From Chondrosia reniformis (lineage: Eukaryota; Porifera; Demospongiae; Chondrillida; Chondrillidae): a stretch of DNA of 64,000 nucleotides. Where the stretch lies: positions 5,555,501-5,619,500 of the forward strand of contig OX359195.1 of NCBI GenBank assembly GCA_947172415.1, written 5' to 3'. The number at the start of each line of letters is the position of its first letter. Position 1 is the first letter of the stretch. The notes beneath the pieces are model-generated. The model was not told the DNA's origin, did not search any database, and worked only from the letters and a program-made list of their open reading frames with translations. A program made the position numbers and the translations under genes. Below, piece by piece: positions 9,901 through 37,130 of this stretch.

Positions 9901-12900
9901 ACCATGGCCACTAATTAATACAAATCATACGATAGGTAATAAGCCAGAGAGTACAATAATTGCAAATTACAAGTGCTTGTTTTTAATAATTACAATCCTA
10001 AACTCAGTATGAACAACAAATGTAATGACTTTAATATACTTTGTAGACCAATCCCATTTCGTAACACTTATCATGTATGTGAAACACTCGTGTGCATATA
10101 CTGGCATTCAGACTTACTTCAGACATTGTTAGATCTGAGAATACCACAGCTTGAGACACTTCCATCTTCACCACTAGCCCTGTGTCTCCTTCGTACCTCC
10201 CCGCTATCACCTTCACATGGTCACCCACTTTGAAGTACTTAGCTAATTCATTGGCTTGAAACTCGAGAGGGTCCTACAGAAGACAAAAGCACAAATAATA
10301 AGAGAGTTGTGATGGCATGATTAAAGAGAGAACCACTTAAACTTACAGAGCATCTCCAAAGAAATACAGTAGTACTACGTACGTATGCATATACAGTGTG
10401 TAAGATGGAACTTTAATGTATTAGAATTGGTAAGAGTTTGATGTCACTGGATTGAGAGTGGAGACTTCTAATTCCAATGAAATGGCTACTCAACTGAGGT
10501 CAACCAAGAGCTGAAAGGTCAACAGAAATACAAAGGATTCAACTCTATAGAATAGGACAAGCTTTTCGATGGCATATGTTTCAATTCATTTTGGAGTTGT
10601 TAATTGTGTAGCTCTTTATTTTGAAACTTTCTGAAATAACAAACTATAGTCTACCAGAGTAAAAAGGAAACTTATGAAATATATGCATGATCTACTTGTA
10701 CAAGAGACTGATGATATCTTTCAAAAGTGAAATTTTAATTTAAGACTGGGGTTTGGTTAATTTAAGACTGGGACTAAGAGTTCAATTTAAGAGACTCTGG
10801 TTACTAAGAGTTCAATTTAAGAGACTCTGGTTGCTAAAAGTTCAATTTAAGAGACTCTGGCTGCTAAGGAGTTCAATTTAAGAGACTCTGGCTGCTAAGG
10901 AGTTCAATTTAAGAGACTCTGGCTGCTAAGGAGTTCAATTTAAGAGACTCTGGCTGCTAAGGAGTTCAATTTAAGAGACTCTGGCTGCTAAGGAGTTCAA
11001 TTTAAGAGACTCTGGCTGCTAAGAGTTCAATTTAAGAGATTCTGGCTGCTAAGGAGTTCAATTTAAGAGACTCTGGCTGCTAAGGAGTTCAATTTAAGAG
11101 ACTCTGGCTGCTAAGAGTTCAATTTAAGAGACTCTGGCTGCTAAGAGTTCAATTTAAGAGACTCTGGCTGCTAAGAGTTCAATTTAAAGGTATGGTTGCT
11201 AAGGTTGGTGAACAGACCGTTAAGTCCTCATGTTTGGGTTGAATGGTGACAGTGTTCCCATCCACACTCAGAACAGCTCCCTGAAGGTGCATCAATTCTC
11301 CTTCACACACTTCCACCACATCCCCTGGGGTGAACAGCGGGGCACTTTTGTCATTGGTCAAACTTGTGTTTACTGTAAACAGAGAGAAGAGGAGATTTGA
11401 ATATCTGACTTTAGATCAAGGGATAATGATGTATACGTACGTATGTATGTGGATTATCTGAGCTTGTAGATAGGGTCATCTTAGAGTGTATTACTTATAA
11501 CAGTTAATATTGTGTAACACACTCACATTCTTGCTCAATTTCTTCAGGAGTGACTTGAAACTTTTCCAATTCCCCAAGTGTAGGCTTAACTCCTTCATGA
11601 AGCTAAGATTAAAGATTAAATTAGAAGTTATTAACTCCTTCATGAAGCTAAGATTAAAAATTAAATTAGAAGTTATTAACTCCTTCATGAAGCTAAGATT
11701 AAAGATTAAATTAGAAGTTATTAACTCCTTCATGAAGCTAAGATTAAAGATTAAATTAGAAGTTATTAACTCCTTCATGAAGCTAAGAATAAAGATTAAA
11801 TTAGAAGTTATTAACTCCTTCATGAAGCTGAGATCTAGAAGTTATTAACTCCTTCATGAAGCTAAGGTTTAAAGATTAAATTAGAAGTTATTAACTCCTT
11901 CATGAAGCTAAGAATAAAGATTAAATTAGAAGTTATTAACTGCCTGTTAACAACACATTGGATACAACAACATACATGTACTAATAGAACACAAAGCTAA
12001 ATACATAAACTGAAGCCTATATACTTGACAGATATTTATAACCTTAGCTTATAATAAGAGGTCTACAGCATGACTTTGTTTAGGAACAAGCCAACGAATA
12101 TGGGGATGAAGTAGAGGTGGAAACAGCCTTGCAACGAATATAGACACTATCTACGGTACATGTTGACACTAAATGGGTGGGCAAGGTCCGTCAAGGGAAG
12201 TGCCTCCCTTGAAATGAAGGTCTCCTGTGTGTATAGACAATTAAGAACATACACCTACCCCTATATCTATATGTAGTCTCCACTTACCAGAGCTGACAAG
12301 GGAAACATTTTGTAGAGGAAGCCATTTTTGTATCGGTTTCCTTCAAACAGCCAGTATTCCCCTTCTCTGGACACTTCTCCCCCAATGGCCCGGATCTGCT
12401 CAATATCAAAGTGCTTCTGAGGAGGTCTCTTACGTCTCTTCCTCTCATCCTCCTACATCAGATGCAGTAAAGTAATCTGTCAGTTCACTAACCTCTGTTG
12501 ACCCACCAATAGTGGAGTACCCTCTGCTACATACGTATATACACACAGATAATAGACTATATCAGAGAATACAGTGGTACATCTATAAAGTCTGACAAAT
12601 ACACTGTAACAATTGTAGCTCAGTGCAGAGCACTGGTGGCCATAACCAGCTATCCTGGGTTCATATCCCAGCAATTGCTTCCTTTGTAATTTCTCCCTCC
12701 GTAATGTTTGCCTATGATTGATTGTGGCTTGACTATCAATACAATTTCACATACATTTTACATATATTAGTATACCTTTCAGAAAACATTCCTATACTTA
12801 GAATAACCTCACTGCTGGAGGACGTTAGCTTGGATGGATACTGTGAATATGTATTACATTAGTCCATCAGACCTTAGGTCATTAATAATAGACTACTACC

Positions 12901-15900
12901 ATTTGGTATTTTCCCTTGGAAGCAAATTGGGGTTTTCCCCACTGAAAGCCAACTCACTCCTGAGGCCTTCAACACTCCCCTCTTCTTAGTATAATCTATC
13001 CTTGGCATCAGCTTACACATTGCAGAGTTACGTGACAAGTCAACATACTCCACCTGAAAAGAGAAAAAAAAGAGGCCACTCTTTACAGGCATACTGTCTT
13101 ACATGTACATATTTGTGTACCGTATTTGTCTGAGTAGAGCCCCGGGCCTCTATGTTATTTTGACCCTGCCTCAATTTGAACCAAGCGTCTATAAAATTAT
13201 TCTTTTGACGTCTGTACTCATCTCCCTAGTCGCTTACTTAGTCTACTTTGCAGTGCACTTAACGGCCTCTCCTTCAACATCGTAGGACTATCGCTTTTGC
13301 ATCGCTTCTGCAGTATAAACTGGCTAGACATTGTGATGGGTTCATACCTCGACCCAGTGTGTCAATTTGAGAGACCCTGCCCTCTATTTGAGACCCTGCC
13401 CTCTATTCGAGACCCTGCCCTCTATTTGAGACCCTGCCCTCTATTTGAGACCTTGCCCTCTATTTGAGACCTTGCCCTCTATTTGAGACCTTGCCCTCTA
13501 TTTGAGACCCTGCCCTCTATTTGAGACCCTGCCCTCTATTTGAGACCCTGCCCTCTATTTGAGACCCTGCCCTCTATTCGAGACCCTACCCTTTATTTGA
13601 GACCCTGCCCTCTATTTGAGACCCTGCCCTCTATTCGAGACCCTGCCCTCTATTTGAGACCCTGCCCTTTATTTGAGACCCTGCCCTCTATTCGAGACCC
13701 TACCCTTTATTTGAGACCCTGCCCTCTATTTGAGACCCTGCCCTCTACTCGAGACCCTACCCTTTATTTGAGACCCTGCCCTCTACTCGAGACCCTGCCC
13801 TCTGCTCGAGACCCTGCCCTCTACTCGAGACCCAGGACTCTATTCGAGACTGGCTTCTATACGGATATATGCAGTATGAGCCCCTGTATGTATACATAAA
13901 GTGGATCCTTGCTCAAAGGGTCAACGGGGTTGGGCCAGGTAAATGTCTGGATATTTTAAACTCAGTGACAGCCATTATTAAAACATGGGTTATGCCTTTA
14001 AATACAGTATTACTGTACATATACAGAGGTTGAGCTACTGGTATACCTAGGTGTCCTGACTAACTGCATAGTTAAAGAAACATTAGTTTTAGTTATGTAC
14101 TCCAACAGGGGTCCAGAAAAGGCAGTCCCCCCTGAAGTGTGATACTTGGGTGACTATCACTTTAATAACACAACTAATGTCTAGTCAATCAGATGATACC
14201 TGTCCTATGTCATCCATGAAGATTCCTCTCTTCAGCCTGATCCAGGAGTTCTGTTTGATCCCTCCAGTGTCCTTCACCACCTTGAGGACATCGGTCATCT
14301 CCTTGATCGGCACCATGATCTGGGACCACTTGCCCAAACGAAGATTGGAGACATCTTCTACAGTCTACAGAAAGAATCCATTCCCAGTAAAGGAAGGAAA
14401 GTGATGAAGTGACTGCAGTGGTCAGTTGGGAGTCATAAGTGAGCAGTGGCAATATCATTTAGATGCAATGAGTAATCTAATACCTTCCTCCATACCACAT
14501 CCATTCTATAGTAAAAGGCCTGTAGTTAACTAGTGAGAGCTTTGGATGAGGATATAAGAATCTACTCTGTATTCTTCTGCTCCATGGGGCCACAAGATAG
14601 TTATGATTAAAAAATAATTCTAAAATCACAAACAATAGGTACGCTAGTGGTACAAGCTCTTCCATACCTGTTTGACATGGGTCTGTTTGAATGCCTCCAC
14701 ATATATATATCCTTTAAGACCTTCTACTGCAATGGCAGACTTAATCTGCAGGGGCTGTACAGTACAGAATAATACAACATACAATGAATCACAGGTCACC
14801 ACACAGTAATACAGACATACATACGTGCTATAAGCTATATACATGTACTTATGTAACTATCTCCACCTATATCCCACTCAAAGACTTTGTTGACACAATC
14901 AGTTACTAGTAACATCACAGAAGTAACAATTCTTACACTGTCAGAATCTTGCTTGGAAAGGAATTTCCTCATTAAGAGCAACACAGTCTCCTTCTCTGCT
15001 CCAGGTTTGCACTTGACAGTCCACAGGTTGGGGTCCCTGAGGAGTGCAACTCAACCTTATGTTATGTGCATACATACCCAAATTTATGAAATTTTGTAAA
15101 GCAAATTTCACTGTAAACAAATTCATTCTAATACATTTAGTGAACAGTACAAATACACTGTACATCAAAGGATTTCTTCTAACTGTGTTGAATATACGTA
15201 TCTTTCAAATGATACATCTTTCAATTTATTGAAATTAAAGAAGATCCTCAGGGTACGTCTGACAAAAGATTAAACCAACTGCACCCTTACATGGAAAGAT
15301 GAGCCATTCAAAAGAGACACATGCATAAGATCAAGACATTCTCTTCCTAATCAGATTATGTGCTAACTTCACTCCAGGTAGCAGGCTCTGCTGCCGGATG
15401 TCTTCTGGCTGCTCCTCGTACTCATCAAACTCTCCTTCAGGAGCCTCAGCATACTTCTCACGATAGTACTTTTCAATGTGATCGTGATCCTGACTGCATA
15501 TGAATACAGTATACATATCATGACATTGTATATATATTCCTATACTCCTACAATATGTATATATGTACATACATATATATGTACTGATAGGGTTTATTTG
15601 TCGCGATCATGATGATATATGAAGTTTATTGAGCAACAGCAACATTAAATCTTTGGAATAGAATGTTTCAACCCATAGGTCTTATTGCTGATGAAGACCT
15701 ACGGGTTGAAACGTTCTATTCCAAAGATTTATTGTTGCTGTTGCTCAATAAACTTCATATATCATATATATGTATGTAGGTACATTCCTAACTATGTACA
15801 TACATGTACTGGCTGCCATTCAATAGGATCTGGGTCTCCCAACCTAGACCAGACTTTGGTCACATAGCTGGTCAGGCGTATTAACTCCAAGTGATTATTT

Positions 15901-22019: not shown

Positions 22020-22905
22020 TAAAACAACTCTACCTCCTGGTCCTGTCCCTCCAGCTAGCTCTAAGACAGCTTATGGGAAGGTTGAGATGAAGGAGTATGC
22101 TTGGCTCTTTGACACTCCTTATTTGGTCACTAAAACAGTTGTAGCAGACAATCCACTCACATTTTAGGAACTTGACCAGAGCTATGGGTTTGTGATTTAC
22201 ACATACAACCATCCTCTGGAGAGGCTTACCAGATCATCTCCCATCACATCCACCACTTTCAGCCTCTCACTGAGTGGTATACGTGACAGAGCCAATGTCT
22301 TTATTGATAACCAATTGCAGGGTATAGTTAAGAGACAAGAGGCTGATGGAGGAAATATGACAATTGTGATCCATCAAAGTGCCGGCTCACATGGGAGATT
22401 AACCATCTTAGTGGAGAATGAGGGTAGAGTGTGCTATACTGAATGAGGAAGCAAGAGTCTCGACCTCATTGATCACAAGGGAATTCTTAATGGAATCTTC
22501 CTCAATGGTACACTTTTAAAGGATTGGACCTCACAATCTGTTCCAATGAACATGTCCTTCCCGGATGACATCTTGAAGCCTCTTCCCTCCTCTGGTGCCC
22601 TGCCCTCCAGTGCTATACTCTTCAGAGGTCTGTTACCAGCCTTCCCAAAGGGGTCAACTGCTAATGATACCTTCTTGTTGCTGGATGGGTGGAGCAAGGG
22701 TGTGGCCTTTATTAATGGGTTCAATATAGGCAGATATTGGCCAGTGGAACCTCCTCAAGTGACACTATATGTACCGTCCAGTGTCTTGAGATCTGATGGG
22801 ACATCCAATGAGATTGTGGTGTTTGAACAGGACAAGTCACCATGCCAACCACCTCTATATGACAACTGTCTAGTCAGTTTTGTGGACAAGCCAATTTTTA
22901 AGTGA
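22020..22905 (+). pseudogene. Beta-galactosidase C-terminal fragment, two in-frame stops
   Basis: The translation follows the C-terminal beta-sandwich half of lysosomal-type (GLB1, glycoside hydrolase family 35) beta-galactosidase. Landmarks are LPPGPVPPASSKTAYGKVEM, NPLTF, SYGFVIYTYNHPL, GIRDRANVFIDNQLQGIVKR, LTILVENEGRVCY, HKGILNG, SKGVAFINGFNIGRYWPVEP and PQVTLYVPSSVLRSDG. The N-terminal TIM-barrel catalytic half is absent. A TAG at about 22165 and a TGA at about 22443 interrupt an otherwise collinear reading; the flanking residues align without a gap at the first stop. No introns are seen across 880 bases. It may be a retrocopy or a decayed duplicate. The TTTTAG at the first stop resembles a splice acceptor, so a short cryptic exon structure cannot be excluded. 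Confidence 0.8.
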
Positions 22906-23700: not shown

Positions 23701-26700
23701 ATGGAGCTTGGCAAAGAGATCATAAGAAAGAATCTTCTCCTTCTTATCGAAGATTTGGACGCCAAATCCATCGTAAATCATTTATTTGCAGGAGAAGTCA
23801 TAAATGATTCTTTGGTGGAGAAAATTAAAGCGTGTACAACTCGAAAAGAAGCGAACGACGTTTTGGTTTGGCACCTCCACAAAAGTGCTAGCATGAAGAC
23901 GTTAGATAAATTTTACAACATCCTAAAAGAAACCTCTGAGATTTGTCCAAAGCATAGTGAATTGTTGGAAAAGCTGGTGGATTGGAGCCCTAACGACGGT
24001 TGGTGATAGTGGAGTTACATCACTGTGTTATTTTTTTAACTTTTTGCTTTCTTGTATAGTGCTGCATGGGGCATACTCTCGCCCTAGTGTGCAATGCACA
24101 TGGTGCACCTAAAAATTATATATTTGAATATTGAATATAGCTAATAGGCTATAGAAACATAATGCAAACATGCATGCGCACTGTACGTGCCTTTGTACTC
24201 TTACTAATGCTTCCCCTGACTACTTAATCTACCCATTGATTCAGTTTAAACTCTATATCAAAGACGCCCTACATATTGTAAGAATCGTTAAGAAACTGTC
24301 TCATATATCGTAAAAGTTGTAGAGAGATTGATTGAATATTAAATATTAATGGTATTTGCTGTGAAAGTCCATGGTTACTATATTAAGGATGATTACTGTA
24401 GATTTGAGTGGTCATTTGGTGGTGACCAATCCGGTGGTAAACGACTCACACATACAACAGTATGACATTCTATCACACTGCCGCCGAGATCTCATAAGCT
24501 TCTTGAGCCAGGAAGACCCCAAATCTGTAATGCAGCTGCTATACAATGGAGCATATGTTGCTCTTCTCACCTTGCTACAGCCATTTCTCTCTGATATTAA
24601 GGATACCTGCCTTAATCTAATGGGGATTCTCCGCATTCAAGGTCCACAAGTAGTGCATACATGTATGTCTGTTAAAGAGCTCTTTAGTTCCATGAATATA
24701 GCCAAATCATGGAATGATGTATCCTATTTGAGAGCAATGCTGGGTGCATTACCACCTGTCCACAGAGGTGTACCTTCCGCTATTCTGGATCACTATGAGG
24801 AACACCTCTTTGATTATCGCAGTGTTGTAGCAGCAAAGAAAAGGCTCCTGGAGATTAAGCAATCCAGTGATGATCTTCCCAGTAAAGATGTGGTGGAGGT
24901 AGGAATTACTGTCAAGAACAGCATACAGGATCTTTCTTACAGAGGCTGCCATGATGTGTGGAGAGCTGTGTTAGTAGAAGGAGCTGGTATTCCGAGAGAT
25001 AAAGTTGACTGGATCTCAGTTAAGCCCAGCCAGAGTACAACCGTGTGTTTCCATATCCCAAAAGAGTATGCTAGTCGTATTGCAGGTTGCATGTTGAAAG
25101 GTCGCTTCCTGTGGATGCTACTGGAGTTACGGGTCATTAAAGTCCAAATCAGTGGAATTGCCTGTTTCTGGATCACCTGGAACAACTGCAACCATCTTAT
25201 CAAAGATGCGTTGTTGACTGGAGGAGACCTCTTCAGATTTACAAAGGTAATCACATGTGCATACTTTATAAAGTATCATGTATGTTAATTTATGTATATT
25301 CCTATGTATATAGGATGTTTCTGCTCAATTGTATGGTTCAGTCTATTTGGTGAGTGAATTGGAACTGGCAAGTCTGTTTATATACAGTAACTCTGCAAAC
25401 CTTTGATATTAAATTAATGTATAGTTAACCTATGTATCTATACTTGTAACATTGATATTGTGTAAGTTTTTGCATGTACATAAATTACCACTTATTTTGT
25501 ATTCATTTAGTTGTCAACTGAATCAGATTCTGTCAGTACAGAGTTACTGACAAGACTTTACTTTAAGTCATTGTCCATATACGGTATATCCTAAAATAGT
25601 CGATTCTATACTTGCATGTGTTCTGACATATTATTAAATTTCCATATATATACAGAGAGTGAATGTGTGGATATTCGTGACCAACCCTTAGGAGACAAGG
25701 AAGACTGGGTCAGTATATATACGTATGTGTGTCGTATTATAATACGTAGGTTCTAGTGTAATATTTCCTGATTAATTGCCTGAATATATATCTATACTAT
25801 AACATACGTACCTATGTAAGTGGATGTATACGTATATAGGTGAGACCTCTAGAACCAATAGCTGCAAAACCTGTTAGTGTGACAGTTTCCAAGACAACTC
25901 AAATGGAGGAACAAGAGGTGCTAACTATTAGAAAAGGTGTGAATATCAAGAAAGAATATCCAAAGGTGTGCACTATATAGAGTATGAAGTTCTTTACACA
26001 GTTTTTTGCTCAACAAATATATTTGAATTAATTATACATACAATTCTATAAACATCACATGTAAAACTTATGTACGTACGTAGGTTCTAGAAGCTGTTTC
26101 GAAAACAACTCAAAAAAAAGAAACACTAACTTTTGGACAAGGTACTGGTGCGAGTGTCAAGCCTAAGGAAACAGGTACTACAAGAGAGGTGAGCACTATA
26201 TAGAGTGTGTCAGAATCCATGCTAAGAGATACTACATATGGACTTACATTATTAATAGTTTGCATGAAATTTATTAAATTATCATTTTAATGATATGAAA
26301 GCAGTCTGTATTAGAAGTAATGCATTTTCTTTTCTTTGTTTCCCCGTTAACTATCTACCACTATGATGTAATCCTCAGATGGTGAGTATTTGTTAGCTAA
26401 TGCTTTGTTATGCATGTTACTTGAGGATGCATTTTCTTTTCTCTGTTTCCCCATTAACTATCTTCCACAACAATGTAATCCTCAGATGGTGAGTAATTGT
26501 TAGCTAAAGCTTTGTTATGCATGTTACTTGAGGATGTATTTTCTTTTATCTGTTTCCCCATAACTATCTTCCACAACAATGTAATCCTCAGAGAGTGAGT
26601 ATTTGTTAGCTAAAGCTTTGTTATGCATGTTACTTGCGGATGGATGTTCTTTTCTCTATTTCCCCATTAACTATCTTCCACAACAATGTAATCCTCAGAG

Positions 26701-29700
26701 AGTGAGTATTTGTTAGCTAATGTTTTGTCATACATGTTACTTAAAGATGAATGATCTTTTCTCTATTTCCCCATTAACTATCTGCCACAACAATGTAATC
26801 CTCAGATGGTGAGTATTTGTTAGCTAATGTTTTGTCATGCATGTTACTTGAGGATAGATGTTCTTTTCTCTATTTCCCCATTAACTATCTACCACAACAA
26901 TGTAATCCTCAGGAAGTGAGTATATTTGTTAACTAATGCTTTGTCATGCATGTTACTTGAGGATGGATGTTCTTTTTCTGTTTTCACATTAACTGTCTAC
27001 CACTACAATGTAATCCTCAGATGGTGAGTATTTGTTAGCTAATGCTTTGTCATGCATGTTACTTATGGATGGATGTTCTTTTCTCTATTTCCCCATTAAC
27101 TATCTACCACAACAATGTAATCCGTAGAAAGTAAGTATTTGTTAGCTAATGTTTTGTCATGCATGTTACTTGCAGTTGTATCTTCTTTTCTCTATTTCCC
27201 CATTAACTATCTACCACAACAATGTAATCCTCAGATGGTGAGTATTTGTTAGCTAATGCTTTGTCATGCATGTTACTTGTCAATGAAGATGGATGTTCTT
27301 TTCTCTGTTTTGCCATTAACTATCTACCACAACAATGTAATCTTCAGATAGTGAGTATTTAGCTAATGCTTTGTCATGCATGTTAGTTGAGGATGGATGT
27401 TCTTTTCTCTGTTTCCCCAATAACTGTCTACCACAACAATGTAATCCTCAGGAAGTGAGTATTTGTTAGCTAATGATTTGTCATGCATGTTACTTGAGGA
27501 TGGATATTCTTTTCTCTATTTCCCCATTAACTGTCTACCACAACAATGTAATCCACAGAGAGTGAGTATTTGTTAGCTAATTCTTTGTCATGCATGTTAC
27601 TTGAGGATGGATGTTCTTTTTTCTGGTTTCCCATTAACTCTTAACCACCACAATGTAATCTTCAGGAGGTGAATATTTGTTAGCTAATGCTTTTTTGCAT
27701 GTTACTTGAGGATGGATGTTCTTTTCTCTGTTTCCCCATTAACTATCTACCACAACAATGTAATCCTCAGGAAGTGAGTGTTTGTTAGCTAATGCTTTGT
27801 CATGCATGTTACTTGAGGATGGATGTTCTTTTCTCTGTTTCCCCATTAACTATCTACCACAACAATGTAATCCTCAGATGGTGAGTATTTGTTAACTAAT
27901 GCTTTGTCATGCATATTACTTGAGGATGGATGTTCTTTTCTCTATTTTCTCATTAACTATCTACCACAACAATGTAATCCTCAGATGGTAAGTATTTGGT
28001 AACTAATGCTTTGTCATGCATGTTACTTGAGGATGGATGTTCTTTTCTCTATTTCCCCATTAACTATCTACCATAACAATGTAATCCTCAGATGGTGAGT
28101 ATTTGTTAGCTAATGCTTTGTCATGCATGTTACTTGAGGATGGATGTTCTTTTCTCTGTTTTCCCATTAACTATCTACCACAACATTGTAATCCTCAGAT
28201 GGTGAGTATTTGTTAGCTAATGCTTTGTCATGCATGTTGCTTGTCAATGTAGATGGATGTTCTTTTCTCTGTTTTCCCATTAACTTTCTACCACAACAAT
28301 ATAATACTTAGAAAGTGAGTATTTGTTAACTAATGCTTTGTCATGCATGTTACTTGAGGATGGATGTTCTTTTCTCTGTTTATCCATTAACTGTCTACCA
28401 CAAAAATGTAATCCTCAGGAAGTGAGTATTTGTTAACTAATGCTTTGCCGTGCATGTTACTTGAGGATGAATGTTCTTTTCTCTGTTTATCCATTAACTG
28501 TCTACCACAACAATGTAATCCTCAGAAAGTGAGTATTTGTTAGCTAATGCTTTGTCATGCATGTTACTTGAGGATGTGTGTTCTTTTCTCTGTTTTCCCA
28601 TTAACTATCTACCACAACAATGTAATCAGATGGTGAATATTTGTTAACTAATGCTTTATCGTGCATGTTGCTTGAGGATGGATGTTCTTTTCTCTGTTTT
28701 CCCATTAACTATCTACCACAACAATGTAATCCTCAGATGGTGAGTATTTGTTAGCTAATGCTTTTTCATGCATGTTACTTGAGGATGGATGTTCTTTTCT
28801 CTGTTTTCCCATTATCTATATACCACAACAATATAATCTTCAGATAGTGAGTATTTGTTAGCTAATGCTTTGTCATGCATGTTACTTGAGGATGGATGTT
28901 TTTTTCTCCATTTCCCCATTAACTGTCTACCACAACAATGTAATCCTCAGGAAGTGAGTTAGCTAATGTTTTGTCATGTTACTTGAGGATGGATGTTCTT
29001 TTCTCTGTTTACCCATTAACTATCTACCACAACAATGTAATCCTCAGGAAGTGAGTATTTGTTAACTAATGCTTTGTCATGTATGTTACTTGAGGATGGA
29101 TGTTCTTTTCTCTATTTCCCTATTAACTATCTACCACAACAATGTAATCCTCAGATGGTGAGTATTTGTTAACTAATGCTTTATCGTGCATGTTCCTTGA
29201 CAATGGATGTTCTTTTCTCTTTTTTCCCTTTAACTATCTACCACAACAATGTAATCCTCAGGATGTGAGTATTTGTTACCTATTGGTTTGTCATTCAAGT
29301 TACTAGCGGATAGATGTTCTTTTCTCTGTTTCCCCATGGACTATCGTCCACAACAATGTAATCCTTAGAAAGTGAGTATTTGTTAGCTAATGCTTTGTCG
29401 TGCATGTTACTTGAGGATGGATGTTCGTTTCTCTATTTCACCATTAACTATCTACCACAACAATGTAATCCTCAGATGGTGAGTATTTGTTAACTAATGC
29501 TTTGTTGTGCATGTTACTGAAGGATGGATGTTCTTTTCTCTGTTTCCCCATTAACTATATCTACCATAACAATGTAATCTTCAGATGGTGAGTATTTGTT
29601 AACTAATGCTTTGTCGTGCATGTTATGGATGTTCTTTTCTCTGTTTCCCCATTAACTATCGTCCACAACAATGTAATCCTTAGAAAGTGAGTATTTGTTA

Positions 29701-32700
29701 GCTAATGCTTTGTCATGCATGTTACTTGAGAATGGATGTTCTTTTTTCTATTTCCCCATTAACTGTCTACCACAACAATGTAATCCTCAGGAAGTGAGTG
29801 TATTTATTAGCTAATGCTTTGTTGTGCATGTTACTTGAGGATGGATGTTCTTTTCTGTTTTCCCATTAACTATCGTCCACAACAATGTAATCCTTAGAAA
29901 GTGAGTATTTGTTAGCTAATGCTTTGTCATGCATGTTACTTGAGAATGGATGTTCTTTTTTCTATTTCCCCATTAACTGTCTACCACAACAATGTAATCC
30001 TCAGGAAGTGAGTGTATTTATTAGCTAATGCTTTGTTGTGCATGTTACTTGAGGATGGATGTTCTTTTCTGTTTTCCCATTAACTATCTACCACAACAAT
30101 GTAATCCTCAGATGGTGAGTGTTTGTTAGCTAATGCTTTGTCATGTTACTTGAGGATGGATGTTCTTTTTTCTGTTTTCCCATTAACTATCTACCACAAC
30201 AATGTAATCTTCAGATGGTGAGTGTTTGTTAGCTAATGCTTTGTCATGCATGTTACTTGAGGATGGATGTTCTTTTTTATTAACTATCTACCACAACAAT
30301 GTAATCCTCAGAGAGTGAGTATTTGTTAGCTAATGTTTTGTCATGCATGTTACTTGAGGATGGATGTTCTTTTTTCTATTTCCCCATTAACTGTCTACCA
30401 CAACAATGTAATCCACAGGAAGTAAGTATATTTGTTAACTAATGCTTTGTCATGCATGTTATTTTAAGATGGATGTTCTTTTCTCTATTTCCCCATTAAC
30501 TGTCTACCACAACAATGTAATACTCAGAAAGTGAGTTTTTGTTAGCTAATGTTTTGTCATGCATTTTACTTGAAGATGCTTGTTCTTTTCTCTTTTTCCC
30601 CATTAACTATCTTCCACAACAATATAATCCTCAGATGGTGAGTATTTGTTAGCTAATGCTTTGTTGTGCATGTTACTTTGGGATGGATGTTCTTTTTTCT
30701 ATTTCCCCATTAACTGTTTACCACTACAATGTAATCCACAGGAAGTGAGTATATTTGTTAACTAATGCTTTGTCATGCATGTTATTTGAAGATGGATGCT
30801 CTTTTCTCTATTTCCCCGTTAACTGTCTACCACAACAATGTAATCCTCAGAAAGTGAGTATTTGTTAGCTAATGTTTTGTCATGCATGTTACTTGAGGAT
30901 GTATGTTCTTTTCTCTGATTTCCCATTCACTATTTACCACAACAATGAAATCCTCAGATGGTGAGTATTTGTTAACTAATGCTTTGTTGTGCATCTTACT
31001 TGAGGATGGATGTTCTGTTCTCTGATTTCCATTACCTATTTGCCACAACAATGTAATCCTTAGATGGTGAGTATTTGTTAGCTAATACTTTGTTATGCAT
31101 GTTACTTGAGGATGGATGTTCTTTTCTCTGTTTTCCCATTAACTATCTACCACAACAATGTAATCCTCAGATGGTGAGTATTTGTTAGCTAATGCTTTGT
31201 CGTGCATGTTACTTGAGGATGGATGTTCTTTTTTCTATTTCCCCATTAACTGTCTACCACAACAATGTAATCCTCAGGAAGTGAGTATATTTGTTAACTA
31301 ATACTTTGTCATGCATGTTATTTGAAGATGGATGTTCTTTTCTCTATTTCCCCATTAACTGTCTACCACAACAATGTAATCCTCAGAAAGTGAGTATTTG
31401 TTAGCTAATGTTTTGTCATGCATGTTACTTGAGGATGTATGTTCTTTTCTCTGATTTCCCATTAACTATTTACCACAACAATGTAATCCTCAGATGGTAA
31501 GTATTTGTTAGCTAATGCTTTGTTGTGCATCTTACTTGAGGATTGATGTTCTTTTCTCTGATTTCCCATTAACTATTTACTACAACAATGTAATCCTCAG
31601 AAAGTGAGTATTTGTTAGCTAATGTTTTGTCATGCATGTTACTTGAGGATGGATGTTCTTTTCTCTGTTTTCCCATTTACTATCTACCACAACAATGTAA
31701 TCCTCAGATGGTGAGTATTTGTTAACTAATGCTTTGTCATGCATCTTACTTGAGGAGGGATGTTCTTTTCTCTGATTTCCCATTAACTATTTACCACAAC
31801 AATGTAATCCTCAGAAAGTGAGTATTTGTTAGCTAATGCTTTGTCATGCATGTTACTTGAGGATGTATGTTCTTTTCTCTGATTTCCCATTCACTTTTTA
31901 CCACAACAATGAAATCCTCAGATGGTGAGTATTTGTTAGCTAATGCTTTGTCGTGCATCTTACTTGAGAATGGATGTTCTGTTCTCTGATTTTCCATTAC
32001 CTATTTGCCACAACAATGTAATCCTCAGATGGTGAGTATTTGTTAGCTAATACTTTATCGTGCATCTTACTTGAGGATGGATGTTCTTTTCTCTGTTTTC
32101 CCATTAACTATCTACCACAACAATGTAATCCTCAGATGGTGAGTATTTGTTAGCTAATGCTTTGTCCTGCATGTTACTTGAGGATGGATGTTCTTTTTTC
32201 TATTTCCCCATTAACTGTCTACCACAACAATGTAATCCTCAGGAAGTGAGTTTATTTGTTAACTATAATGCTTTGTCATGCATGTTATTTGAAGATGGAT
32301 GTTCTTTTCTCTATTTCCCCATTAACTGTCTACCACAACAATGTAATTCCTCAGAAAGTGAGTAGTTGTTAGCTAATGTTTTGTCATGCATGTTACTTGA
32401 GGATGTGTGTTCTTTTCTCTGATTTGCCATTAACTATTTACCACAACAATGTAATCCTCAGATGGTGAGTATTTGTTAGCTAATGCTTTGTTGTGCATCT
32501 TACTTGAGGATTGATGTTCTTTTCTCTGATTTCCCATTAACTATTTACTATATACAACAATGTAATCCTCAGAAAGTGAGTATTTGTTAGCTAATGTTTT
32601 GTCATGCATGTTACTTGAGGATGGATGTTCTTTTCTCTGTTTTCCCATTTACTATCTACCACAACAATGTAATCCTCAGATGGTAAGTATTTGTTAGCTA

Positions 32701-33662
32701 ATGCTTTGTCATGCATGTTATTTGAGGATGGATGTTCTTTTCTCTATTTCCCCGTTAACTATTTACCACAACAATGTAATCCTCAGAAAGTGAGTATTTG
32801 TTAGCTAATGTTTTGTCATGCATGTTACTTGAGGATGGATGTTCTTTTCTCTGTTTTCCCATTAACTATCTACCACAACAATGTAATCTTCAGATGGCGA
32901 GTATTTGTTAGCTAATGCTTTGTCATGCATGTTACTTGCTGATGGATATTCTTTCTCTGTTTACCCATTAACTATCTACCACAACAATGTAATCCTCAGG
33001 AAGTGAGTATATTTGTTAACTAATGCTTTGTCATGCATGTTACTTGAGGATGGATGTTCTTTTCTGTTTTCCCAATAACTATCTACCACAACAATGTAAT
33101 CCTCAGGAAGTGAGTATATTTGTTAGCTAATGCTTTGTCATGCAAGTTACTTGCGTATGGATGTTCTTTTCTCTATTTCCCTGTTAACTATCTACCACAA
33201 CAATGTAATCCTCAGGAAGTGAGTATATTTGTTAACTAATGCTTTGTCATGCATGTTACTTGAGGATGGATATTCTTTTCTATTTTCCCATTAACTATCT
33301 ACCACAGCAATGTAATTCTCAGGAAGTGAGTTTATTTGTTAGCTAATGCTTTGTCATGCATGTTACTTGAAGATGGATGTTCTTTTCTTTATTTACCCAT
33401 TAACTATATCCCACAACAATGTAATCCTCAGGAAGTGAGTATATTTGTTAACTAATGCTTTGTTATGTATGTTACTTGAGGATGGATGTTCTTTTCGATC
33501 TCTGTTTACCAATTGACTGTCAATGAGCACTCCTACCTGTTTTATATAATGTAGGGACACATGTACACTGGTAAAAGACAGACTAGTTCTGGTTCTGAAA
33601 CTGGCACTGCTGTAAAACATATGCAGCCTTCAGAATCTGAAAAGCTTGAATTTTCAATCTGA
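23701..33662 (+). CDS. CARD-containing protein with unknown middle region; hosts the microexon-like array
   Basis: Exons: 23701-23998, 24402-25246, 25314-25349, 25511-25583, 25656-25708, 25840-25965, 26084-26188 and 33555-33662. They sum to 1644 nt (547 aa) and close in frame at a TGA. Residues about 1-95 look like a CARD (EIIRKNLLLLIEDLDAKSIV, LFAGEVINDSLVEKIKACTT, RKEANDVLVWHL), a death-fold module that mediates CARD-CARD assembly in innate immunity and cell death. Residues about 100-380 (FLSQEDPKSVMQLLYNGAYV; HDVWRAVLVEGAGIPRDKVD; STTVCFHIPKEYASRI) form a conserved-looking region I cannot name. The tail is polar (SVTVSKTTQMEEQE; KQTTQKKE-like; SSGSETGTAVKHMQPSESEK). The first junction is phase 1 (GAC G|GT ... 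AG|AT TTG); otherwise exon 1 would end at a TGA at 24004 as a CARD-only protein. The last intron (26189-33554) contains the 67-unit array. Confidence 0.65.
26318..33530 (+). repeat. ~67-unit tandem array, each unit with a one-codon exon-like site
   Basis: The unit is about 107 bp and runs as CATGCATGTTACTTGAGGAT, GGATGTTCTTTTCTCT, TTTCCCCATTAACTATCTAC, CACAACAATGTAATCCTCAG, then three bases, then GTGAGTATTTGTTAGCTAAT. In every unit that I read, an AG is followed by exactly three bases and then GT (GC in one unit near 32897). By eye the three bases are ATG 28 times, GAA 17, AAA 14, AGA 4, ATA 2, GAG 1 and GAT 1. First and last sites are at 26379-26381 and 33432-33434. The flanking exons (ending 26188, starting 33555) are both phase 0, so each site could insert one residue without a frameshift. 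Indels occur elsewhere in the unit but not between AG and GT. Whether these are spliced is unknown; a plain intronic satellite is the null. Confidence 0.9.
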
Positions 33663-34199
33663 ACACTAACTCTAGTGGACTGCTGATGTAGAAAATATTT
33701 AGTATAAAACTAGTATTGTAGAGATTGGTTCAAAGCTATAATAACCATATTGAACAAGATTTATATATTTACACTGTATATGTTCTGCATGTGTATGACA
33801 GTAACGGGATGTAAGGAAGTTAACATATCATTATAATTATAATTTCTATAGTTTTCTGAATTAATGTTGCATTGACAAGCCATTTGTTGCATGGGCCATC
33901 CGTACTTCTAATTTCATTTTTTAAATGTTTTTATTTTGCTTTTTTCCCACTTTTTTCTTAATATTTTTTGTTAAAATTTATTTTGTAAGTGTTCTCTTGG
34001 CGATAAATTTGCAAAGAAAGAGAGGAAAAAAGTGTTAGTGACTAGTCCTAAAAGTACTGTGAATAGAGTCTGTCTAAACTTCATCTAGGCCCAGCTATGC
34101 CTAGTCTACCAGTTGCTTTCTACCCAAAGACTACATCTGTGAAGTTTTGTGGAATTTCTATTGCTACTTTTCAAGTTCTGAGGATTTATATTTTTTCGC
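33663..34199. other. 3' flank of the CARD gene and 5' region of the retrotransposon
   Basis: No coding exon. The 33890-34020 part (GGGCCATCCGTACTTC, then TTCATTTTTTAAATGTTTTT and TCTTGGCGA) resembles the outer sequence next to the foldback element at 63770-63860, so a shared transposon end lies here. Confidence 0.5.
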
Positions 34200-37130
34200 A
34201 CCTCAACTATGGAGACAACAACTACAAAAACTTGCCTATTCTGTAAAAAAGACTTCAGTAGGGTTGGAAACTACTACAAAGGCTGTCCCAAAAGAGGAGG
34301 AAGATACTATGAGCATTTGCTTTCACAGAAAACCCTTGCAAAGAAACACACCAAAGCCAAAAAGTTACCCTGCCCCAAATGTGGAAAGCTGTTTCAAAGA
34401 CTTGAAACACACCTAAGAAACAGTGCCACTTGCAAAGAGACTAGAGCACCATCCTCTGAAGACCCACCCACAAGTGTCATATATGAACCAGATAATGCTT
34501 TCATCCATGATGAGGTCACCCCAAACTCCAGTACCAAAGATCCCTCTACCAGCCAACTACTACCAAATCTTCTCCTCCCTAAAAGTACAGATGAGTGGTT
34601 AGAGGCAGACAAATTCTTCCACATGGAAGTAGTACCAAAGGTATGTAATGCACAAACAGTGGATGACATAAATTCCATTCTGTGTACAGAAATATACTGC
34701 TACTTTGCCAACAAATACCAAAGTTTAACACCTCACCTACACCATCATCAACACCATCATCATCACCATCAACACCAGAGAACATTAAAGAAGGTGAGGG
34801 AAGAAAAGAAGGAGGCCAAAAGGAAGCTAAGACTGCTTAGGAAAACAGATGCTACACCTGAATCCATCAAGAAATTAGTGAGAGAGTTTAGTTTGCTATT
34901 AAAACAATACAGCAAGCTAGTCAAAGAGGAACACCAAAGAGACCTGAAAAGAAATACAGCTAAAGAAAGAAAAGAATGTCACAAGAATTTTGGAAGTACA
35001 CTAAGAGGCTTTTAGATGAAGGCAATTACACTAGCATTGACCCAAAGCTCACCAAAGAAGAAGCCACCACTTACTTCCAGACTACCTATTCCACTAATGC
35101 CACCACCTACACCCGCCCAAATTGGATGAAACCCGCAGCTGCACCAACAACACCATGTAATATGGATGCCATTACTCCTAAGGAACTGGCATTCCAGCTA
35201 TATAATCACTGCTGGGCAACCAGGACCACCCCAAAACAATTGAAAAGTAGGTGTTATCCGCTTGCTAGGCAAAAAATCAGCAGAGTCTGATCCAACTCAG
35301 CCAACCAACTTCAGACCAATCGCCCTAACCTCCTGCATAGGGAAAGTGTACTCCTCAATATTCAAAATTCACTGGTTACACTTAATGATTTCAAACAAGT
35401 ACCTAAACACCAATGCACAGAAAACCTTTGTGGATGGTATTTCAGGTTGTACAGAGCACCATTTCAAGTTACTCTCCATTATTGATGAGGCACGCAAGAA
35501 GCACAAATCACTAGCAGTTTGCTGGATATATCTTGCAAATGCCTACGGTAGTGTCTGTCATGCTCTAATCCAGTATTCTTTAAAGCATTGCCACGCCCCA
35601 GACCAATTCGTCTCTATAATGGCTGACCTTTATACCAACCTTACAGGAATAGCTAAAACCGAGAACTGGTCAATTGATCCCTTCCCAATTGAAATAGGAG
35701 TTTTCCAGGGAGACCCCTCTCTCGGTTGTCATCTTTAACACCATCATGAACACTCTAGTGGATACTATCACCCAAGCTGAACAGTACGGATACTCCATCT
35801 CTCAATCAAATCACCCATGCAATCTACTCCAGTATGCTGATGATACCTGCCTCCTTGGTAATGGACCAGCCTCTTGCCAATCCCTACTGAACACCACAGC
35901 TGAATGGCTCAAATGGTCTGGACTAAAGGCCAAGGTACCAAAATGTGCTGCTATGGCAATCCAAGCTTCTTCTGGTAGACCAGCAAACCCAAATTTGTCC
36001 CTAGACAATCAAGCAATACCCTTTATTGGGAATGAGGAGTTCAAATTCCTTGGAGCCACCGTCTCACTATCTAACTGTAGGGACACAAGCAATTAAGACA
36101 TTCATTCTCCAAAAGCTACAGAAATCCCCCAGCTGTGTTGATGGTACACTGCTATCTTGTCAACAAAAACTACACCTTTATAAGGATGGCATCTGCCCCC
36201 GTCTGCTATGGGATTTAGTAACCAATGACCTCCCCTATAGCTGGATGGTAAAGAACCTGGAAGCCTTAGCAACCCGATATCTGAAAAATAGTCAGATGTG
36301 TTGATGTTAACCGGCTATACCTGCCCAAGGATCAAAGAGGACTTCAACTCCCTTCTATTGCGGTCATCTTTAAGAAAATGAAATGTGCTCTAGCAGCCTC
36401 TATGATGACATCACAGGACCCACTGATAAGACACCTTGCCACCAGGAGTACAATAGCAGAAGAGAAAGCAAAACCTCCCGTCTTCAAGCCACACCAGGAA
36501 GTTATCACTGTAATGAAGGAGGACCCAGGGGTATCCCGGAAACAAACCATAGCCAGAGTCAAAAGTAAAATATTTCATCAGGATATGAAGAACCGTGCTG
36601 AACATAGTTCTGGACTAACAAGACAAGGCCATATTTTTACTTAATGCCTTGATCGAGCCCCCAATATGTGGTCTTCTACTATTCCATCACTAACAGAAAA
36701 CATATTCAAGTTTAGCTTAAATGCAGTCACAGAAAATGCAAATCTCCACCTGTGGGGAAAATTACCATCACCAACCTGTAAGCTATGCTTCCAAAAACAA
36801 ACCCTATGCCATGTATTGAACAACTGCAACAAGGCCCTCAACTACAGGAGGTACAACAGGAGACATGCATGACAAGATACTGGACATCATCTTCCACTTT
36901 AAATTTCTGAAAAGCCATCAACCAACAAGAGCCAACATCACTGTAGATCTTCCCGGACACCCCTACAACTTTCCACAACACATAACAGCCACAGACTCCA
37001 GACCAGAACCTTTTGATACAAGTCATGTCATGTGTGTAATTATACCTGGGAGGCTTAGAATGCATTATAGTGCAAGTTACAATATACTAAGGTAATCTAA
37101 TCTAATATATATAATTCATTCATATGGCTC
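34200..37130 (+). mobile_element. Decayed non-LTR retrotransposon, R2/NeSL-like
   Basis: Consecutive plus-strand frames (34209-35015, 34976-35290, 35262-35738, 35746-36096, 36026-36304, 36378-36644, 36666-36872, 36865-37095) carry one element broken by several frameshifts. The N-terminal part has zinc-finger motifs (CLFCKKDF; CPKCGKLFQRLETHLRNSAT followed by C). Reverse transcriptase motifs follow: FRPIALTSCIGKVYSSI, IYLANAYGSVCHALI, GVFQGDPSLG and LQYADDTCLLG. The C terminus has a Cys-Cys-His-Cys finger (CKLCFQKQTLCHVLNNC) and then ATDSRPEPFD, placed like the RPD motif of a restriction-like endonuclease. This order is typical of the R2/NeSL/CRE group, which insert at specific sites. The 3' end reads AGTGCAAGTTACAATATACT and continues AAGGTAATCTAAT. 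This copy cannot encode an intact protein. Confidence 0.85.

Follow-up and report, generated by a model that had tools for sequence, protein, structure and literature searches.

The window, i.e., the whole stretch of DNA analysed here, comprises 64,000 nucleotides of the genome of the demosponge Chondrosia reniformis (C7:5555501-5619500, in an assembly of 117,379,552 bases in 15 contigs). On its plus strand it harbours a gene for a CARD protein, in which a 7.4-kb region between the last two ordinary exons is filled by a tandem array of 67 units, each presenting an acceptor AG, exactly three bases and a donor. Most probably, as judged from the comparisons described below, these units are tandemly duplicated, functional one-codon exons in the 3' part of the gene. 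For the genome as such (odChoReni1) the pertinent passages of the genome report state a size of 117.37 Mb in 14 chromosomes plus a mitochondrial sequence, 10.29 Mb for chromosome 2 and 8.46 Mb for chromosome 7, and mention Illumina RNA-seq ERR10177766 among the data (PMC12181767).

The gene model starts directly with the CARD. Exon 1 (23701..23998) contains the start codon and the CARD itself (Pfam PF00619, E = 2.8e-7 on the open reading frame, ORF); it is supported by the spliced frame and ends in a weak donor, GTTGGT. Exon 2 (24402..25246) encodes a domain of about 280 amino acids without a Pfam match. Frame and conservation in a paralogue on chromosome 2 place exon 3 (25314..25349, 36 nucleotides), exon 4 (25511..25583) and exon 5 (25656..25708). 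They are followed by exon 6 (25840..25965) and by exon 7 (26084..26188), the final ordinary exon 5' of the array, which ends in phase 0 (ACA AGA GAG, donor GTGAGC). The last exon (33555..33662) starts in phase 0 (GGA CAC) and ends with TGA. An earlier note on this DNA, the original prediction, had claimed phase 0 for the exons on either side of the array, and rightly so: 26084-26188 and 33555-33662 continue the open frame that begins in the CARD exon. Exons 1-7 and the last exon join into a single open frame; it has 547 residues if the array is left out and would have 614 with all units. The introns of the gene proper measure 67-403 bases.

Tandem Repeats Finder, which is blind to the motif, detects a 107-base unit in 67.1 copies at 26320-33496. 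The consensus unit consists of a branch-point-like TTAAC, AG, one codon and GTRAGT. The original prediction had seen about 67 units of AG, three bases and GT, one of them with GC, and a strong donor GTGAGT; both claims hold. Exactly three bases separate AG from G[TC] in all 67 units (GT in 66, GC in one), and the donors are GTGAGT (59 of 67), GTAAGT (5), GTGAAT (2) and GCGAGT (1). The pattern used to collect the units itself requires AG-NNN-G[TC]; that none was lost is evident from the even spacing, 97-113 bases from triplet to triplet in a complete row. The first candidate one-codon exon is an ATG (26379..26381), the last a GAA (33432..33434), and 65 lie between them, including those at 27666 and 28630. 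In total the triplets are ATG (28), GAA (17), AAA (14), AGA (4), ATA (2), GAG (1) and GAT (1).

The motif AG-N(k)-GTRAGT was counted for k up to 30. In the array there are 64 cases of k = 3, four of k = 1 and one of k = 18, and none of the remaining values is represented; the rest of the window has three cases of k = 3 in 56.8 kb, both strands counted. The weak pyrimidine tract of the unit acceptor, which the original prediction took as a reason for caution, is real. It is a poor reason, however, because the other acceptors of the gene look alike: the pyrimidine measure is 0.56 for the unit and 0.44-0.78 for the seven others.

The paralogue on chromosome 2 and the variation among units

The paralogue on chromosome 2 shares 89% of the amino acids of the CARD exon and 64% of those of exon 2. 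Its exon order is that of the gene in the window, with one apparent exception: exons 6 and 7 seem to be in part united in a single exon. In the same intron it carries an array of 157 units (156.8 copies according to Tandem Repeats Finder), all 157 of which read AG-NNN-GT, with the donors GTGAGT (127), GTAAGT (17) and GTTAGT (13). Here, too, the flanks are in phase 0 on both sides and the frame is open. All 67 units of the one gene and all 157 of the other thus have the size of microexons (at most 30 bases) and splice signals on both sides. Taken together, the two arrays contain 19 different codons. If all units were used, 67 of 614 and 157 of 657 residues, respectively, would be contributed by one-codon exons, i.e., 11-24%. 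The only other match of the last exon in the genome is that of the paralogue. A retrocopy with joined codons was also considered and is ruled out, since the last exon matches these two places only.

An alignment of 107 columns was built from 223 of the 224 units; one truncated unit of chromosome 2 failed the similarity filter. The three triplet columns show diversities of 0.580, 0.669 and 0.631, while the highest value in the 104 other columns is 0.470. The letters A58 and G59 of the acceptor and G63 and A66 of the donor are the same in 223 of 223 units, T64 of the donor in 222. Because the search pattern already demands AG and, in the donor, G, T or C, A and T, it is the even spacing of the units that vouches for the invariance of these letters. 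On trees from whose construction the tested columns were left out, the three positions of the triplet require 46, 58 and 54 steps (elsewhere 6.8 on average and 33 at most), and columns with no step at all make up five of the eight splice columns but six of the 96 others (Fisher p = 2.4e-4). A branch-point-like yUnAy has its A 29 bases 5' of the triplet; the U is found in 220 and the A in 218 of 223 units, and the form TTAAC in 170. A neutral minisatellite should have no column pattern tied to function; columns and trees reveal one.

Between the two genes the triplets differ by 61.9%, the unit introns by 10.4%. Six flanking non-coding stretches were compared for reference: the three best aligned ones differ by 9-11%, three short and gapped ones by 17-28%. 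The unit introns therefore drift about as the neighbouring DNA does, or somewhat less, and the triplets differ far more.

Further arrays and the probable coding content of the triplets

Additional arrays were located by means of five fixed 12-letter patterns. For two of these the best 100 of 140 and the best 100 of 139 places were considered, and the arrays were read in part; their number is therefore a lower bound. On contig C13 two arrays were found. The larger one (C13:4822719-4853608) comprises 299 units after removal of four chance pattern matches. Its introns are of two types, one of 112 bases and a shorter one of 72 bases with another acceptor, and the exon has three bases in all units. 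It begins 5.8 kb 3' of a relative of exon 2 with 33-35% identity; a CARD, exons 3-7 and the last exon of the gene in the window were not found in the stretch read. The smaller array (in C13:4774500-4783000) has 66 units in the part read.

On contig C12, 29 units of about 218 bases, three chance matches having been removed, lie in the 13.9 kb read. They form two blocks about 5 kb apart with transposase-like ORFs between them. One of these (L041:4901-8568) is large, 734 amino acids on the minus strand, and looks transposase-like by eye; a second ORF accompanies it. The region from C12:4866463 to 5113517 contains 19 and 51 matches of two of the patterns, most of them beyond the part read.

The array on contig C1 (C1:1605500-1612500, L043) consists of 20 units of about 257 bases. 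In eight of them six bases come after a CAG (TTTTAC, TTTCAC or GTTTAC). In nine, a second AG follows the CAG three bases on, so that the exon could have six or three bases (AAGAAA, AAGCAA, AAGGAA, GAGGAA). The remaining three have lost the CAG; they have a TAG placed three bases further 3', which leaves GAA as the exon. Loss of an acceptor together with a new one three bases on would thus shorten an exon from two codons to one.

Are these arrays related? The 107-base unit aligns with a 115-base unit at 65% over 86 bases, the 218-base with the 257-base unit at 68% over 105 bases, and the 115-base with a 75-base unit at 83% over 70 bases; the E-values for this kinship come from a comparison of five sequences. 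Since pairs of units align at 65-83%, they may go back to two old lineages and not to four of independent origin. The exon length is held at three or six bases while the introns of different lineages are at best 65-68% alike, which is strong evidence that the exon is the conserved feature. The triplets are diverse here as well. The values are 0.580, 0.655 and 0.362 in those 198 of the 299 units that have the 112-base intron (other columns: mean 0.041, maximum 0.512), 0.683, 0.683 and 0.495 on C12 (mean 0.062, maximum 0.447), and 0.684, 0.636 and 0.493 in the smaller C13 array, where the two intron types were pooled (other columns up to 0.600).

Within about 1.5 kb downstream of ten other relatives of exon 2 no array was found. 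This excludes little, because in the case of the large C13 array the distance to the relative upstream is 5.8 kb. A dispersed repeat was rejected, as the 107-base unit was found at two places only, the arrays of chromosomes 7 and 2; two genome searches with this unit gave two candidate regions at first look, of which one was scored. A chance satellite was rejected on account of the column statistics and the other arrays.

The five arrays other than that on C1 offer 618 triplets. These represent 26 codons and not a single stop; 14.3 stops are expected if each position is shuffled. The encoded residues are E (135), M (125), R (93), K (81), D (68) and L (41), with 75 others, and the segment would accordingly be charged and helix-friendly. 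Opposite charges at i,i+4 are seen in only one of four arrays, the smaller one on C13 (z -3.4, in a plain shuffle that ignores block duplication). The triplets of units 128-133 and 145-150 on chromosome 2, read in order, spell DSGIDS. DSG(phi)XS is the pattern of the beta-TrCP phosphodegron. One of 20000 shuffles of the chromosome 2 peptide has the motif, which was picked post hoc.

Possible splicing mechanism and rival explanations

How could 67 exons of three bases be spliced? Simultaneous binding of both sides is hardly feasible on an exon of this size. If the units are one-codon exons, as we consider likely, their introns would be recognised by intron definition and removed in order, beginning at the 5' side. 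With every splice the upstream exon would gain three bases, and the next donor, GTGAGT, would come to lie at the new end; the process would be a recursive splicing that leaves one codon per step. In the product, the parts encoded by exon 7 and the last exon would be linked by a charged segment rich in Met, Glu and Lys and at most 67 residues long, and the segment would evolve residue by residue through gain, loss and change of units. As all units are in phase 0, skipping any number of them keeps the frame. With all units used, the 7.4-kb region would be split into 68 introns of 94-190 bases, and that of the paralogue into 158 introns of 83-118; these predicted introns are of the same size range as those of the gene proper. 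The expected spliced read is ACAAGAGAG followed by the unit triplets in order, or a run of triplets before GGACAC.

The original prediction had proposed that the CARD protein could gain a variable run of residues by using such units. The units indeed look like frame-keeping exons, the paralogue and the other arrays retain AG-N3-GTRAGT despite differing triplets, and no stop occurs among 618 triplets; to this extent the proposal stands. The occurrence of the design at several places in the genome suggests that splicing can extend a protein by single residues. A far more tentative thought, which we regard as possible rather than probable, is that of a gene class whose arrays contain exons of one codon, in some cases two, by the tens to hundreds, and whose transcripts would differ in the units used and thus carry an open-ended set of tails. 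It would include at least two genes of CARD proteins and might be of use in immunity or self-recognition.

Of course, a tandem repeat with block duplications may also be nothing but an intronic minisatellite whose founder had a splice-like motif by chance; the array would then be a single 7.4-kb intron and the triplets meaningless. We consider this improbable. The splice columns are invariant and the triplets near-saturated over 223 units with introns that drift like their flanks, other arrays of the genome repeat the design of three or six bases with other unit sequences, stops are absent from the 618 triplets, and such an intron would stand beside introns of 67-403 bases. The window contains three further tandem arrays (10774-11187, 11586-11941 and 13371-13850, with periods of 31, 45 and 19). 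As a minisatellite control, the 19-base repeat displays uneven column diversity of up to 0.46; the 31-base repeat could not be used, as its units were read in the wrong register.

Alternatively, the units may be stepping stones for a stepwise removal of the long region, with triplets that are absent from the mRNA or irrelevant there. The original prediction had named this possibility too, and as a mechanism it fits: strong donors follow directly upon acceptors, the spacing is even, and both large introns would be divided into pieces of 83-190 bases. A purely non-coding device, however, leaves the diverse, stop-free triplets and the lengths of three or six bases unexplained. Moreover, known ratchet points, where described, juxtapose acceptor and donor (PMC8605326), whereas the array shows k = 0 not once and k = 3 64 times. 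The non-coding version is therefore quite improbable. A third rival holds that introners entered a formerly uninterrupted reading frame between its codons. It would explain why certain introns do not differ in any aligned column and yet flank quite different triplets, which in this case were never copies of each other. We hold this to be very improbable. Introner families are dispersed over many genes, while the 107-base unit was found only in the two paralogous arrays; blocks of units were duplicated together with their triplets; and an insertion in phase 0 after every third base at 67-299 consecutive sites is hard to imagine.

The case for one-codon exons is not without blemishes, and the following findings speak against it. 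In the array of the window alone the triplet columns (entropies 0.86, 1.27 and 1.09) are among the most variable, yet they are not the top three, as column 25 reaches 1.31 and column 21 1.13; the case for triplet variability hence rests on the paralogue. Single-base changes account for 25 of 86 triplet changes on the tree, 22 of them non-synonymous and three synonymous. This synonymous share is near the neutral expectation (16%), and the test therefore shows no selection on the encoded residue. In recent block duplicates the triplets differ at 4 of 117 and the introns at 20 of 4009 positions on chromosome 2, and at 0 of 15 and 6 of 515, respectively, in the window; because of these differences the triplets may be a mutational hotspot. 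In 11 of the 223 units the stretch from branch point to acceptor contains a further AG, located some 15 bases 5' of the acceptor. The stop test counts units that are not independent, and for the array of the window alone it is powerless, since 0.0 stops are expected there. The 77 units with the 72-base intron on C13 do not fit a general rule of triplet diversification: their triplet columns reach 0.075, 0.000 and 0.447, the maximum elsewhere being 0.590. Finally, a heptad or coiled-coil order of the encoded peptides is not supported. The hydrophobic power observed at 3.4-3.7 residues was reached by 923 (window), 67 (chromosome 2), 434 (large C13 array) and 1877 (small C13 array) of 2000 shuffles, and in the large C13 array the lag is a multiple of seven in six of the 24 longer repeated codon runs.

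Relation to known systems and neighbouring features

Tandem exon duplications such as that in insect Dscam involve large exons of which one is used at a time. They resemble the present arrays in being duplicated and frame-keeping, but here each exon is one codon. Exons of a codon or less are known to be spliced. In the passages that deal with them, micro-Ex8 of Drosophila homothorax is described as a three-base microexon (PMC7392893) and APC11 of Arabidopsis as containing a one-base exon, for which intron definition and recursive or stepwise splicing were suggested (PMC4674806). Those are single tiny exons, however, not runs of 67-299 duplicated ones with differing triplets. Human RPS24, as presented in the pertinent parts of PMC12686416 and PMC11162997, has several microexons in a row, but these are three and not a tandem array.

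The schistosome micro-exon genes share with the arrays very small, symmetric exons, by which splicing can vary a few residues; as outlined in PMC4350168, the coding region there consists mostly of small exons, and some of the products have signal peptides. By comparison of the descriptions, both sponge genes have three-base units and phase-0 flanks, but encode a CARD protein, use near-identical introns and would place 67 of 614 and 157 of 657 residues, i.e., a minority, in one-codon exons. The ratchet points and RS-exons of recursive splicing also bring a donor to the new junction at each step. According to the relevant passages of PMC8605326 and PMC6224609, ratchet points leave no base behind; in the model proposed here a codon would be left each time, in keeping with three bases, and never none, between acceptor and donor. 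Among the matches listed in the open-licence literature we found single microexons, short runs (RPS24) and the schistosome genes, but no array of one-codon exons. Three-base exons are thus known singly; the array of them is new among these matches.

If the units are spliced, they would be an extreme case of exon size and a natural test of the spliceosome on tens to hundreds of successive one-codon exons; they would also open a route of protein evolution via gain, loss and reordering of single codons. If inclusion varies, one gene could give rise to a very large repertoire of tails. Exons so short are poorly handled by ordinary gene predictors and read mappers, and proteins of this kind may therefore be misannotated.

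The exon 2 domain has 24 matches in the genome, itself included. Ten members of the family were compared with Pfam without any significant match (best E 0.025), and a structure model from the single sequence was not used (mean pLDDT 43). Searches of viral and prokaryote collections yielded no match. The CARD exon matches 148 places in the genome, many of them clustered on chromosome 2; Chondrosia reniformis thus has a large CARD family. Between the two genes exon 2 diverges unevenly, with 53-63% DNA identity in the first 400 bases and 97-98% in the last 150 or so, for which gene conversion or a diversifying domain may be offered as alternatives.

A beta-galactosidase gene (22168-22905) adjoins the CARD gene and has its counterpart on chromosome 2 near 9754457-9755341. 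The two neighbourhoods are 95.7% identical over 894 bases. This points to a segmental duplication between chromosomes 7 and 2 that spans the CARD and beta-galactosidase genes. Directly 3' of the last exon follow the reverse-transcriptase ORFs of a LINE-like element (34182-36096), with RVT_1 at E = 2.3e-13 on the ORF at 35698-36096.

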